Source: Nocardioides sp. URHA0032
GTDB taxonomy: Bacteria; Actinomycetota; Actinomycetes; Propionibacteriales; Nocardioidaceae
DNA length: 64,000 bases
Assembly: GCF_000620645.1 (NCBI RefSeq)
Contig: NZ_JIAV01000014.1
Location: 186,001-250,000, forward strand
Direction of reading: 5' to 3'
Shown: piece after piece, positions 58,967-64,000 of the stretch
Position numbering within the stretch: the first letter of the stretch is position 1
Layout: every line of letters starts with the position of its first letter
Translations under genes and position numbers: made by a program
Notes under the pieces: model-generated
The model's input: only the letters and a program-made list of their open reading frames with translations
What the model was told of the DNA's origin: nothing
Database searches by the model: none

Positions 58967-60994
58967 CTAGCGCAGGCGGTACACGTCCATCGCGGTCTCC
59001 CGCACGGCGTTGCCGTGCCGGTCGCGACCCGTGACCCGGATGCTCATCGTCCCCCGGTCGCCGTGGGCACGCGGGGTGGCGTACCGCACCCGGAACGAGT
59101 CCGTCGAGGTCCGGACGACGCGCGCGTCCCGCCAGTGCACGCCGTCGGTCGACACCTCGACGGTGGCGCGGGCGACGTGCTGGTCGTGGGCCGGCGTGCT
59201 GAACGAGAGGCCGAACGTGGTGCGGCCCGGGGCGACGTACCCCGCCAGCGTCGACGGCGGCACGTACGACGGCGTCAGGATCGGCTGGCGGGCAGCGCCG
59301 TGCGCCGAGTGGAAGGTCCACACGTCCTCGACGTTCGTCGAGAGCGTCCAGGTGGGGGCGCTCGGGTGCGAGACGGCGGTCAGCTCGAAGGTCCGCCGGT
59401 CCCGCGGAACCTCGACGGCGTAGGAGATCAGGCCCGTTCCGTCCGCGATCACCCGGCCGTCCTGCCGGAGCGCCCACTCACCGTCCTCGTCCGGCACGAA
59501 GCCGAGCATCTCCGACCCGGCCCCGGAGAACAGCGGGAGCTGTCCGTACAGCACGTTGCGGTAACGCCCGGTGAGCGCGAACGGGCTCGGCCCCTCCGCG
59601 CCCGGTCCGACCGGGCCGTGGGCGAAGACGGTCCGGTAGGTGTGCCCGGCACGGGGATAGCGGTGCACGTCGATCAGCTGGGTGAGGTTCTCGTGGCGCC
59701 GGGTCATCAGGGGCATGACGACCTGCGTGTAGGACAGCTCCCGCGAGGCCTGGAGGAACAGCACCCGCCGGCCGGGCACCCGCGTCTCGAAAGACTGGCC
59801 ACCGGACAGGCCCAGGTCCGACGTCCCGACCTCCACGAACGTGGGTCGGCGACCCGCGGGGCCGTTGGCGTAGAACTCCTGGACCACGCGCGCGAAGTCG
59901 TCGTGGTGGTGCACGAAGGTCAAGTCGGCCGGGACCCCGTCGGCGACGTCGGCGGTCACCGCGAGCCGGTGCGCGGTGCGGGCAGGTCCGCTGCCCCTCC
60001 GGACCAGCTGGGCGGAGACACCCGTGTGCACGGTGCCGTAGGTCGGCTGCGCGGCGACCGGTTGCACGCGCGTGAAGAAGTGCTTCCCGGAGAATCCGAA
60101 CGAGTAGCCGTTGGAGTCGCCGACCTCGGCGCTGATGGTCAGGTCCGCCTCGACCACCCGGTGGCCGGGCATCGAGACGTGGGGCCGTGCGGTCGCGTCC
60201 GCGAGGTTCAGCGACACGGTGCTGTCGTCGGTCACGGCGAACTCCGGCGGGAGCAGCACCGCGCTGAACGTCGAGGCGACGAGCACGTACCTGCCCTCGG
60301 GAACCTTCGCCGTGACGGTGCCGTCGGCGCCGGTCGTGAGGAAGCCGCCGAACGCGGGATCGTCGAGGTCCATCAGGAGCACGTCGGCGTACCCGACCGG
60401 ATCCCCACCGCCGCTGTGGAGCTCGATCGTCAGCGTGTGCCGGGCACGGGAGGCGGTGTGGGTCGTCGCTGCCCCGGCGAGCCGCACCGAGCGGACCGCC
60501 TGGAGGTCGGCGGCCTGCACGCCGGCCGCAGAGTAGGACCCGAGCACCGTGCCCGAGGACGTACGCCGCAGGTGCAGCGCGTCGCCGGCGGCGCTGCGGG
60601 CACGTGGCGCCGCGTCGTCCCGCAGCGTCACCACCACCGGGACTCGCGACCCGTGGAGCCGCGCGAGGCGCGTGACGTCGTAGAGCGACGGGTCGAGCTT
60701 CGACCGGAGCGCCGCCGGCAGCCGGGGCACGAGGTAGCTCGAGGTCCCGACGTCCCCGTGCATCACCTGCCCGCCGAGGTGCGGTCCCGACACGATCCGC
60801 GACACCCGCGAGCCGTCCGCGCGGGTCGTCAGCAGCACGGTGTCGCCGGTGATCAGGTGGACCGTCCGGACCTGGGTCACGGCCAGCGGTCGCGCGGCCG
60901 GCCCCGACGGGCGGCCCGGCGGCGGTCCTGCGGTGGCGGGTGCCGCGACGAGCGCGGCGGCGAGAACGGCGAGCGCGAGCAAGGTACGACGCAT
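58967..60994 (-). CDS. Large secreted protein resembling a subtilase without its catalytic domain
   Basis: This 675-residue protein has a signal peptide (about 1-22) and an N-terminal region VRTVHLITGDTVLL...LYDVTRLARL. I recall that region as the propeptide of large actinobacterial S8 peptidases. The middle and C-terminal parts are beta-rich (GYADVLLMDLDD, GTVTAKVPEGRYVLVAST, FGLSFSTPAHDQ), also like the C-terminus of those enzymes. The S8 catalytic motifs (DTG, HGT, GTSM) are absent and the frame is intact. It may be a cell-surface binding protein or protease inhibitor. ATG 60994. Confidence 0.7.
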   Translation of the reverse strand: MRRTLLALAVLAAALVAAPATAGPPPGRPSGPAARPLAVTQVRTVHLITGDTVLLTTRADGSRVSRIVSGPHLGGQVMHGDVGTSSYLVPRLPAALRSKLDPSLYDVTRLARLHGSRVPVVVTLRDDAAPRARSAAGDALHLRRTSSGTVLGSYSAAGVQAADLQAVRSVRLAGAATTHTASRARHTLTIELHSGGGDPVGYADVLLMDLDDPAFGGFLTTGADGTVTAKVPEGRYVLVASTFSAVLLPPEFAVTDDSTVSLNLADATARPHVSMPGHRVVEADLTISAEVGDSNGYSFGFSGKHFFTRVQPVAAQPTYGTVHTGVSAQLVRRGSGPARTAHRLAVTADVADGVPADLTFVHHHDDFARVVQEFYANGPAGRRPTFVEVGTSDLGLSGGQSFETRVPGRRVLFLQASRELSYTQVVMPLMTRRHENLTQLIDVHRYPRAGHTYRTVFAHGPVGPGAEGPSPFALTGRYRNVLYGQLPLFSGAGSEMLGFVPDEDGEWALRQDGRVIADGTGLISYAVEVPRDRRTFELTAVSHPSAPTWTLSTNVEDVWTFHSAHGAARQPILTPSYVPPSTLAGYVAPGRTTFGLSFSTPAHDQHVARATVEVSTDGVHWRDARVVRTSTDSFRVRYATPRAHGDRGTMSIRVTGRDRHGNAVRETAMDVYRLR

Positions 60995-61132: not shown

Positions 61133-64000
61133 CTAGCCCGCGAGGTGCCCCCAGGACGCCGACAGCTCGGTCCACGGGCCGACCGCGGCGACCCTGCCCT
61201 CGACGAGCACGACGACCCGGTCGGCCTGGACCAGCGCCGCGCGCTTCGAGGTCGCGCCGACCACGGTTGCGCCGCGCTCGCGCAGCGCGGTCCAGAGCTC
61301 GACCTCGGTCGCGGCGTCGAGCGCCGAGGACACGTCGTCGGCCAGCAGCAGCTCGGCCTCGCACGCGAGCCCGCGGGCGAGGGCGAGGCGCTGCACCTGA
61401 CCCCCGGACAGCCGCACCCCGCGGTGCCCGACCAGCGCGTCCGGCCCGCCCGCCGCCTCGACGTCGGGCGTCAGCCGCGCGGTCTCGAGGGACGGGACGA
61501 CGGCGCGATCGGGATGATCGAGCCGGACGTTGTCGGCGAACGTCCCCGACATCACCCTCGGCACCTGGGCGACGTGAGCGACGCGCCCGGGCCGCAGGAA
61601 CGTCTGCGGGTCCGCGACCGCCTCGTCGTTCCAGCGGATCTGGCCGTGGCTGGAGACCAGGCCGGCGAGAGCGGACAGGAGGCTCGACTTGCCCGAGCCG
61701 ACCTGGCCGAGCAGCAGCACCAGCTCCCGGGACCCGACGGTCAGCTCGACGTCGCTGACGCCGATCGTGCCGTCGTCGTGGACCGCGGTGAGGCCGCGCA
61801 GCTCCAGCGTGCGCAGCGGGTCGCGGACCCCGGGCTCGGGCGCGGGCGAGGCGCCCGTGACGAGGTCGACATCGGCCGGCAGCTCCATCAGGTCGCCACC
61901 CCCCGCGAGCCGGCTGGTGGTCTGCATCCAGGCGCGCGTGCCCGGGGCCTCGGTGATCACCGAGCCGGCGACCCGGCCGAACCAGTCGAACCCGTTGACC
62001 GCCCCGGCGACCAGCAGCGCGGTGGCCAGGCCCCAGCCGCCGCCGACCAGGACCGCCCACGCCGTCACCACGCCGCACTGGACCATCACGATCGGGACGC
62101 CGTCGAGCAGTGCCTGGACGCGGTGCTCGCGGACCGCCGCGTCGACCCGGCCTCCGTCGACCCGGCTCAGGTGGGCGTGCACGCTGGGGGTCGAGGCAGC
62201 GAGCTTCACGGTGCGCACCGAGTCGAGGGCGGAGACCAGGGAGCGGCCGAACCCGGCGCGCGCGGCGGCCGACGCCGCGGCGGAGCGGCCGGCCACCCGG
62301 CGACCGAGCGACGACGCCAGCGACGACGCGACCATCACCCCGAGGAGCACGCCGCCGGCCAGCAGGCTCCGCGCGAGGATCGCGGTCACGACCGCGATCA
62401 GCAGGCCGTTGACGAAGTCGACCCAGCGGTCGGCGTACCGGGCCAGCCGGTCGGCGTCCATCGTCCGGGCGACCACCTCGCCGGCGGGCGTGCGCTCGAG
62501 GCGGTGCTGGGCGGTCTGGCCGGCGAGGACCGAGGTGCGGACGCGCAGCATCACCGAGACCCACCAGCGCGGGTAGCGGCGGATCGCCTCGGCGAGCAGC
62601 AGCGGCGAGGTCAGCAGCGACACGACGAGCGCCGCAGTGAGGACCGTCGGGGTCTCGCCGCGCTGGAGCGCCACCACGAGGTGGCCCCAGATCCACCCGC
62701 TCACAGCACCCAGCGCACCGGTCAGCACCGAGAAGAGGAAGAGCGCGACGCTCACCAGCCCCCAGCGGGGCTCGACGACCAGAGCGGAGTACGTCGCGCG
62801 CGCCAGCCCCGGGATGTCGCGCAGCCGGGGCGGCGGGGGCGGCTCACCGGTACGCCGGGCGGTGCCGACGCTCCGGTCCGCCGACTCGTCGACGGGGCGG
62901 ACGACCCCGTCCTCGGCGGATGCCTCGAGAAGGTCCCGGAACGGGCCGGGCTCCGCGGCGAGCACCGCCCGCAGACCGAGTTGCACGACGCGGCCGCCGT
63001 CGAGCACGGCGACCTGCTCGGCCCGCTCGGTGGTCGAGAGCCGGTGCGCGACCAGGATCCCGGTGCGCCCGGCGAGCAGCCGCTCGGCCGCACGGACCAC
63101 GTGGCCCTCGGTGACCGGGTCCATCCGCGCCGTGGCCTCATCGAGCACCACCACGCGGACGTGCCGCACGAGCAGCCGGGCGAAGGCGACCAGCTGCTCC
63201 TCGCCCGACGACAGCGTGGTGCCGCCGGGACCCAGCAGGGTGTCCAGGCCGTCTCGCAGACCGGCGACCCAGGCGTCCAGCCCGAGCTCGGCGACGGCGG
63301 CCTCGACCTCGGCGCGCGGGACCGGCTCGAACAACGTGATGTTCTCGGCGAGCGTGCCGGCCAGGATCTCGGTGCGCTGGGTCACGACGCCCACCGAGGA
63401 GCGCAGCTTCTGCAGGTCCAGATCGAGGACGTCGACGCCCCCCAGGAACACCGAGCCGCGCTCCGGCTCGACTGCCCGCGAGAGCAGCGACGCCAGCGTC
63501 GACTTGCCGGAGCCGGTGCGGCCGACCAGCGCGCAGGTGGTCCCCGCCGGGACGTTGAGGTCGACGTGCTCGAGGGCGAACCGGCCCTCGACGTACGCGA
63601 AGTGGAGGTCGTGGAACTGCACGTCGAGCCGGCTGTCGGGCAGCTCCATCCCGCCGACCGGCTCCCGCTCGGCACCGAGGAGGCTGCGCAGCCGCAGCAC
63701 CGCGCCGAAGCCGGCCTGGAGGTCGGGCAGGTGCCGGGCCAGGTTGTCCACCTGGCCGACGAACATGGTCGTGACGAGGTACAGCGTCACCAGCGACGCG
63801 GTGTCCAGGTCGCCGTCGGCGACCAGCGCGACGCCGACGAGCGCGGTGGCCGCGAGGACACCGTGCAGGAGCGTGCCCGTGCGGCGGCTGATGCGTGCCT
63901 CGAGGCCGACCACGACGGCGAAGCGGCGGTTCACCTCGGCCGCCAGCGCCGTGCACCGCCGCAGGACGTGCGCGCGGCCGAGGCTGGTGCGCACGTCGTC
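61133..64000 (-). CDS. Double-length ABC exporter (TMD-NBD-TMD-NBD), N-terminus off the edge
   Basis: At least 955 residues are visible; the first transmembrane domain is cut at the right edge. NBD1 has Walker A GRTGSGKST (about 160-168), signature LSSGE and Walker B VVVLDEAT. A second transmembrane domain (about 385-660) follows. NBD2 has GQVGSGKSSL, LSGGQVQRLALARGL and LLADDVSSALD. Both NBDs look active at the ATP sites, although NBD2 has Asp-Asp in place of Asp-Glu at the Walker B catalytic base, so one site is probably degenerate. It may export a peptide, lipid or drug. Confidence 0.9.
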   Translation of the reverse strand, partial: DDVRTSLGRAHVLRRCTALAAEVNRRFAVVVGLEARISRRTGTLLHGVLAATALVGVALVADGDLDTASLVTLYLVTTMFVGQVDNLARHLPDLQAGFGAVLRLRSLLGAEREPVGGMELPDSRLDVQFHDLHFAYVEGRFALEHVDLNVPAGTTCALVGRTGSGKSTLASLLSRAVEPERGSVFLGGVDVLDLDLQKLRSSVGVVTQRTEILAGTLAENITLFEPVPRAEVEAAVAELGLDAWVAGLRDGLDTLLGPGGTTLSSGEEQLVAFARLLVRHVRVVVLDEATARMDPVTEGHVVRAAERLLAGRTGILVAHRLSTTERAEQVAVLDGGRVVQLGLRAVLAAEPGPFRDLLEASAEDGVVRPVDESADRSVGTARRTGEPPPPPRLRDIPGLARATYSALVVEPRWGLVSVALFLFSVLTGALGAVSGWIWGHLVVALQRGETPTVLTAALVVSLLTSPLLLAEAIRRYPRWWVSVMLRVRTSVLAGQTAQHRLERTPAGEVVARTMDADRLARYADRWVDFVNGLLIAVVTAILARSLLAGGVLLGVMVASSLASSLGRRVAGRSAAASAAARAGFGRSLVSALDSVRTVKLAASTPSVHAHLSRVDGGRVDAAVREHRVQALLDGVPIVMVQCGVVTAWAVLVGGGWGLATALLVAGAVNGFDWFGRVAGSVITEAPGTRAWMQTTSRLAGGGDLMELPADVDLVTGASPAPEPGVRDPLRTLELRGLTAVHDDGTIGVSDVELTVGSRELVLLLGQVGSGKSSLLSALAGLVSSHGQIRWNDEAVADPQTFLRPGRVAHVAQVPRVMSGTFADNVRLDHPDRAVVPSLETARLTPDVEAAGGPDALVGHRGVRLSGGQVQRLALARGLACEAELLLADDVSSALDAATEVELWTALRERGATVVGATSKRAALVQADRVVVLVEGRVAAVGPWTELSASWGHLAG

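Follow-up and report, generated by a model that had tools for sequence, protein, structure and literature searches.

Propeptide-like inhibitors of subtilases that are encoded as stand-alone proteins are described from apicomplexans, fungi and a plant, the examples in the sections of the source drawn on here being SUB1-ProM, TgMIC5 and proteins of Pleurotus, yeast and Arabidopsis (PMC6993865). CspC is a subtilase-derived, non-catalytic protein that has gained another role, as set out in the portion of the source used here (PMC6636752). A 2008 survey of prokaryotes counted 42 of 966 serine protease homologues as catalytically inactive, according to the excerpt available (PMC2605481). For the family of large actinobacterial S8 proteases treated below, the accessible part of the open-licence literature yielded no report of members lacking the S8 domain, which is no proof of their absence. 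We take the large S8 members of this family to be SAM-P45-like.

Here we describe a gene in a stretch of 64,000 nucleotides, which we call the window. From sequence comparisons we read its product as the non-catalytic shell of a large secreted actinobacterial subtilase, most likely an extracellular binding protein, and we put the probability of this reading at a little under one half.

The window gene and its match to large S8 proteases

The gene occupies positions 58967-60994 on the minus strand, which the earlier sequence-only reading had not named, with its ATG at 60994 and its stop codon at 58967-58969. Its frame of 675 aa (P0001) is intact, with 0 internal stops. GC at third codon positions is 0.941, and five genes nearby have values of 0.949-0.975; at such a GC content, long frames often arise by chance. 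The genome (G000) comprises 4.56 Mb in 17 contigs and encodes the protein once, on contig C11. The features are:

58967..60994, minus strand: coding sequence of the S8-less subtilase-like protein, 675 aa (open frame; S8 proteases matched on both sides of the missing domain; GC3 0.941)
60929..60994, minus strand: predicted Sec-type signal peptide, residues 1-22, cleavage after A-T-A (hydropathy and AxA rule)
60650..60889, minus strand: prodomain-like module, part 1, residues 36-115, motif L-[IV]-T-G-D-x-V ... L-D-x-x-L-[YF]-x-V (alignment A6 with 14 prodomains; profile 48.7 bits; AlphaFold block means 72-87)
60467..60649, minus strand: prodomain-like module, part 2, residues 116-176, ending in VRSVRLAG (profile match extends to residue 160; model confidence low)
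60179..60454, minus strand: β-sandwich resembling transthyretin, CnaB and carboxypeptidase regulatory domains, residues 181-272, the first module past the missing S8 domain (VIA-align Z up to 11.4; CarboxypepD_reg E 0.05)
59618..60178, minus strand: middle β-rich region, residues 273-459, with low confidence over 269-342 (AlphaFold model; gapped alignment with S8-bearing relatives)
58970..59617, minus strand: C-terminal β-rich region, residues 460-675, the last ~175 of which form the family signature W-x-F ... S ... G-x-x-W ... G (profile 108.9 bits; pLDDT; alignment A5)

The protein starts with MRR and a hydrophobic stretch (best 15-mer 2.62 on the Kyte-Doolittle scale), behind which signal peptidase cleavage is placed by the AxA rule. 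Since no further 19-residue stretch exceeds a hydropathy of 1.55 and the sequence contains neither LPxTG nor cysteine, the protein is predicted to be exported and probably released. A Pfam scan gave nothing over the cut-off, with CarboxypepD_reg as the best match (E 0.05), and NCBIfam gave no match.

The sequence-only reading had likened the N-terminus to the prodomain of large actinobacterial S8 proteases and the remainder to their C-terminal parts, and had proposed a profile search as a check. We built a prodomain profile and an S8 profile from the same 14 S8-bearing proteins, the window protein being excluded, and used a C-terminal profile from which the window row and its closest relative, L055, were left out. 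Both likenesses were borne out: the prodomain profile scored 48.7 bits (E 3.5e-14; best of 1000 shuffles 10.3) and the C-terminal profile 108.9 bits (E 1.4e-32; best of 1000 shuffles 7.7). The S8 profile reached 1.7 bits, which is under the best of 1000 shuffles (6.8), in agreement with the claim of an uninterrupted frame lacking a peptidase domain. The check thus came out as predicted for both domains, but the prodomain match stems from our own profile and none came from Pfam or NCBIfam. Inhibitor_I9 gave no Pfam hit in the window protein at E 10; as two S8-bearing relatives scanned at E 1 also had none, this model seems not to cover the present type of prodomain.

The claim that all catalytic-triad motifs are missing was right for D[ST]G and G[TM]S[MA], both absent, and needs amending for H[GC][TS], which matches once (HGS, residue 114), within the prodomain. 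The catalytic domain is also not hidden nearby: in the 16-kb stretch around the gene no frame of at least 40 aa matched the S8 profile, and the sole S8 match in the whole window at E ≤0.1 covers 40 residues (E 0.049) and lies 16 kb away. The domain has therefore not simply been misread. The protein has no Peptidase_S8 domain with an Asp-His-Ser triad and is also not a pseudoprotease with an S8 fold and a defunct triad, there being no S8 match in the gene or the 16 kb; what it does have are the prodomain and C-terminal parts of the large actinobacterial S8 subfamily.

Among 195 relatives searched, 31 genomes had matches, the window's own included, with frames mostly of 1100-1440 aa. Of 18 stretches taken from this search, 12 had a matching frame of 1100-1327 aa, five had shorter frames and one was the window gene itself. 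In BLAST comparisons, both ends of the window protein were matched in 10 of the 12 long-frame relatives, some of them weakly (E up to 1), and the other two (L037, L038) matched the N-terminal end only. The N-terminal matches ran from residue 2-7 to residue 110-212 and the C-terminal ones began at residue 172-549. In an alignment of 33 sequences, the catalytic part appears as a gap in the window protein, 352 columns wide behind residue 112 with another 94 columns behind residue 117, and residues 177-675 are collinear with, for example, residues 610-1248 of L037. Judged from this alignment, the missing part is the S8 domain together with the first Ig-like domain behind it. The exact junction is uncertain, because MAFFT placed part of residues 113-176 against sequence behind the S8 domain; when only prodomains were aligned, residues 116-176 fell opposite the second prodomain half, and by eye their VRSVRLAG end resembles the VRKLWLDG of some S8-bearing proteins.

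An AlphaFold2 model based on the 33-row alignment was of moderate quality (mean pLDDT 66, pTM 0.57). Residues 501-675 had block means of at least 80 in all blocks but one, and residues 269-342 are unreliable. The best structural matches of residues 181-272 were transthyretin/CnaB-like sandwiches (VIA-align Z 10-11.4 in the best rows, rmsd 2.8 over 94 residues), a very common fold shared by many unrelated proteins and found, among many others, in pilins, an S-layer protein and a putative carbohydrate-binding protein. Foldseek matches to the whole model were chance-like and were discarded (query TM 0.08-0.15, rmsd >15 Å, mostly complement, macroglobulin and fibronectin chains).

Modelled alone, as the sequence-only reading had suggested for the N-terminus, the prodomain was predicted to form short helices and five strands over its first 80 residues (block means 72-87), with poor values beyond. 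The best VIA-align match was an unrelated protein (Z 3.2, rmsd 3.6 over 73 residues); a subtilisin propeptide was not among the structural matches listed and a search of the prodomain alignment against PDB chains gave no match at E 10, neither of which excludes anything.

The closest relative and the genomic surroundings

Among 215 genomes of the genus searched with the whole protein, eight had matches, its own included, and besides its own only that in G255 spans the window protein. G255 is a metagenome bin of the same genus, 90% complete and of low coverage (1.5), and statements on it need confirmation. Its protein, L055 (G255:C273, 42-3413), is 30-32% identical to the window protein over nearly the full length and has the same S8-less layout in a frame of 1124 aa, with the S8 domain absent at the same place. 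Scans of genome contigs with the window protein as query found no relative, and with a two-row alignment one, the G255 record; a phylum-wide sample searched with the two-row alignment had matches in 3 of 396 genomes, its own included, those in the other two covering the C-terminal half only. The window protein and L055 are sisters with support of 100/100. As they share the absence of the S8 domain, the simplest view is that it predates both, rather than reflecting a gap in the assembly of a single genome.

Between the two proteins, the prodomain halves are 39 and 38% identical, the signal peptide and linker 38% and the rest 29-34%. Counting identical residues, the prodomain (53/137) is slightly better conserved than the rest without signal and linker (148/489), a difference that is suggestive only (Fisher p 0.078).

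Behind the shell, L055 continues for ~390 further residues, of which residues 171-381 match kumamolisin-As, an S53 sedolisin (E 1.2e-7), so that one type of protease has apparently been exchanged for another on the shell. This match could mean that the common ancestor of both proteins carried an S53 domain behind the shell, which the window protein lost, the shell targeting whichever protease is attached to it. We consider such a history improbable: L055 is a single example from a low-coverage bin, the window has no S53-like match at E <0.7, the window protein itself has no S53 catalytic domain, and no S53 domain was found in the window genome at E 0.001, in a search run without a positive control.

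On another contig of the same bin (C275), a degraded C-terminal piece of the family (L056, 9189-9830) adjoins frames that, by the look of their translations, are presumably papain-like and lysC/asd-like; errors are possible at this coverage.

The upstream neighbour of the window gene, on the same strand, is a fused ABC exporter of 1201 aa that extends beyond the window end (61133-64000 within the window), with two ABC_tran stretches and one membrane-domain stretch passing Pfam; its stop codon at 61133 lies 138 bases before the ATG of the shell gene. Downstream, on the opposite strand, follow an LEH/SnoaL-like gene and an amidohydrolase. An operon with the exporter as a conserved unit is not supported, as the nearest upstream frame with a Pfam hit in G255 is a DEAD-box helicase, and in this limited comparison of the two genomes we saw no conserved partner gene. 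A promoter and terminator scan, which covered sigma-70 types only, found nothing.

The window genome contains six S8 places, and the shell might serve one of these proteases as a separately encoded, non-catalytic subunit that binds the substrate in trans. This appears very improbable, since none of the six lies on contig C11 or has the prodomain of the family, and the neighbours of the gene are the exporter and the SnoaL/LEH-like protein. An S8-bearing relative finds two of the six S8 stretches at E 1e-5, with matches confined to the surroundings of the S8 domain. None of the six stretches matches the window protein at E <0.3. A sibling in the same genome as partner was likewise rejected, there being no second match to the protein or its prodomain.

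These surroundings also bear on the proposal that the protein acts as a propeptide in trans, its free prodomain inhibiting an S8 protease or helping it to fold, be it the organism's own or a competitor's. The prodomain-like module is kept and, as noted, slightly better conserved against L055, and eukaryotic stand-alone inhibitors of this kind are known, as the cited part of PMC6993865 describes. In searches of genomes with the prodomain profile A6, which includes the window row, at E 0.001, the six S8-less carriers G123, G125, G128, G136, G130 and G154 had further matches in frames >1000 aa. Many actinobacterial genomes thus carry several large subtilases of this family, the seven other genomes tested having 2-26 prodomain places each. 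In the window genome and in G255 (the 90% complete bin), however, the profile finds a single place each, the S8-less protein itself, and the surroundings of the six S8 places give no match, as described. Further, the second prodomain half, which in ordinary propeptides adjoins the active site, is shortened and weakly predicted, and some 500 additional residues would be superfluous in an inhibitor. For the window protein we therefore regard this role as rather unlikely, and the inhibitor or chaperone function suggested by the sequence-only reading loses ground accordingly; trans-inhibition of a foreign protease, with targets outside the family or the organism, is possible.

Distribution, phylogeny and selection of S8-less shells

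We surveyed 293 genomes of the order with the C-terminal signature profile A5 (window row included) and found the signature in at least 53 of them. The counts for order, genus and class are lower bounds, because only 11-16 candidates per genome were scored. Of the 150 rows listed, 22 had frames <1000 aa, and all of these were examined with the prodomain, S8 and C-terminal profiles. Proteins without S8 whose frames exceed this length, such as L055, escape the filter, and the S8 check did not extend to every one of the other 128 rows.

Seventeen of the 22 short-frame rows, the window included, had no S8 domain in the fetched stretch. A prodomain is present in eight of them (the window, L041, L094, L116, L117, L124 and the L121 tandem pair), in L041 and L121 with its first part only, and has no match in the other nine (L043, L113, L114, L118, L119, L120, L122, L125, L126). 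Homologues of the same layout, which the sequence-only reading had expected in other genomes, thus do exist. A simple hydropathy scan found a signal-like hydrophobic start in 15 of the 17 proteins. L118 and L122 have no obvious signal peptide by hydropathy, and their true starts may be misplaced. L121 (G154:C11, 3238-7861) consists of two S8-less, prodomain-bearing paralogs in tandem that are ~58% identical. In the remaining five short-frame rows (L039, L040, L042, L115 and, in L123, the second gene), a frame change has broken an S8 gene; such cases are frequent, which suggests ongoing gene decay in an expanded family.

In a class-wide sample, the signature occurred in at least 49 of 276 genomes. 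Eleven short-frame rows were listed besides the window and nine were fetched, of which four were S8-less: L128 and L129 with a firm prodomain, L133 with a weak one (E 6e-4) and L132 with none; the other five (L127, L130, L131, L134, L135) were broken or contig-edge genes. In the genus sample, at least 24 of 215 genomes had the signature, in 48 rows, 13 of them short and three of these not fetched. Short-frame rows without S8 besides the window were L125 and L136 (no prodomain match) and L139 (weak, E 4e-4). L137, with a firm prodomain, adjoins scattered S8 pieces and was left uncounted, and the short frames L057 and L138 had C-terminal matches only. A further short-frame row of this sample, L056, is the degraded G255 piece described above. 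Taken by sequence, the window protein appears to belong to a recurrent class of secreted subtilase shells.

For a tree of the region behind the S8 domain, we used 45 rows, 17 S8-less (L055 added, L125 left out) and 28 S8-bearing, the latter mostly labelled by frame length rather than by individual runs against the S8 profile. The tree has five changes between the two S8 states, at least three of them forced by well-supported branches, and a single S8-less clade was rejected (log-likelihood 88 lower, AU p 0.00012). The tandem pair groups with an S8-bearing protein (100/99). A set from four species joins a different S8-bearing group (92/91), and six proteins in which no prodomain was matched join a third (99/95); the long branches of L055 and L113 add uncertainty. 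Most simply, the sequences point to repeated loss of the S8 domain. Its gain by a shell would also fit the tree, which does not fix the direction of change, but is less likely because 128 of the 150 listed rows have frames >1000 aa.

The four-species set (L094, L116, L117, L124) comprises intact S8-less orthologs from one other genus that are 80-83% identical. Their overall dN/dS was 0.12-0.22 by YN00 and 0.40-0.51 by NG86. By region, YN00 gave 0.04-0.14 for the C-terminal and 0.07-0.12 for the middle part, 0.12-0.26 and 0.11-0.38 for the prodomain halves, and 0.45-1.14 for the signal peptide and linker, which served as internal control (computable pairs). By NG86 the regions differed little, with 0.44-0.57 for the C-terminal and 0.37-0.61 for the middle part, 0.24-0.44 and 0.32-0.70 for the prodomain halves, and 0.37-0.71 for the signal peptide and linker. 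Three further S8-less pairs had NG86 values of 0.43, 0.43 and 0.54. One of the two methods thus suggests that this ortholog set is under constraint, a result that concerns relatives and not the window protein.

The same data can be weighed against the view that the window gene is a decaying remnant, left without function, expressed or not, after an in-frame deletion took the catalytic domain. The family is patchy in the genus, searches for a close ortholog found none, S8 genes broken by frame changes occur often, and G255 holds the degraded C-terminal piece on C275. Yet the signal peptide and the 675-codon frame are intact and GC3 is normal, an argument weakened by the frequency of long chance frames; the loss of S8 is most simply older than the divergence from G255, where the frame of the copy is intact as well; and an S8-less ortholog is intact in four species of another genus. 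On balance we judge decay unlikely. The evidence is better for the recurrence of shells, and for at least one set having stayed intact in four species, than for any function of the window copy.

Proposed role and comparison with known systems

Our preferred reading remains that of a non-catalytic, extracellular binding protein. It has neither the S8 domain nor the Ig-like domain that follows it, and keeps the signal peptide, the prodomain-like module and the β-rich modules. These β modules, which in the parent protease may hold a substrate or polymer or attach it to the envelope, would perform this task with no cleavage involved, and the N-terminal module that is kept could aid the folding of the shell or offer a contact surface. 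The relatives suggest that shells have arisen repeatedly and may be maintained by selection, so that they probably bind rather than cut, and a surface or substrate binder is our best guess. Export, the binding function and its ligand, and a job of the N-terminal module independent of S8 are what we infer from the features described.

A wider reading, doubtful but worth stating, would extend this to enzyme-free shells across actinobacteria: in-frame S8 loss would have recurred, selection would have kept the shells, tandem pairs would have formed and an unrelated protease, S53, would have been acquired at the opposite end. On this view the functional unit would be the shell rather than the protease, a device for binding or attachment with exchangeable catalytic domains and a prodomain that has a task in its own right. 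If shells are repeatedly retained without an enzyme, selection must act on what the non-catalytic modules do, for instance on the binding of a polymer, a cell surface or another protein. They would also be a natural test of what a prodomain does besides folding or inhibiting its protease. Annotation by the catalytic domain alone misses such genes; for the window protein, Pfam and NCBIfam have no passing model.

Stand-alone propeptide-like inhibitors are small. The window protein resembles them in being a propeptide-like protein encoded without a protease, and differs in its 675 aa, in the lack of another prodomain match in its genome and in that no match to their fold was seen. With CspC it shares a non-catalytic nature and descent from a subtilase; CspC, however, keeps the S8 fold with altered residues, whereas the window protein has lost the whole domain. 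The cases of the 2008 survey lack or substitute catalytic residues, and loss of a whole domain with retention of the prodomain is not described in the excerpt available (PMC2605481). Kumamolisin-like S53 sedolisins are joined to the same shell in L055 and are absent from the window protein, with none found in its genome at E 0.001. The likeness is greatest to the large multi-domain actinobacterial S8 proteases (1100-1327 aa), with which the window protein shares, in the same order, the signal peptide, the L-[IV]-T-G-D prodomain, the β modules behind S8 and the C-terminal signature, and from which it differs by the missing S8 domain, first Ig-like domain and catalytic residues.
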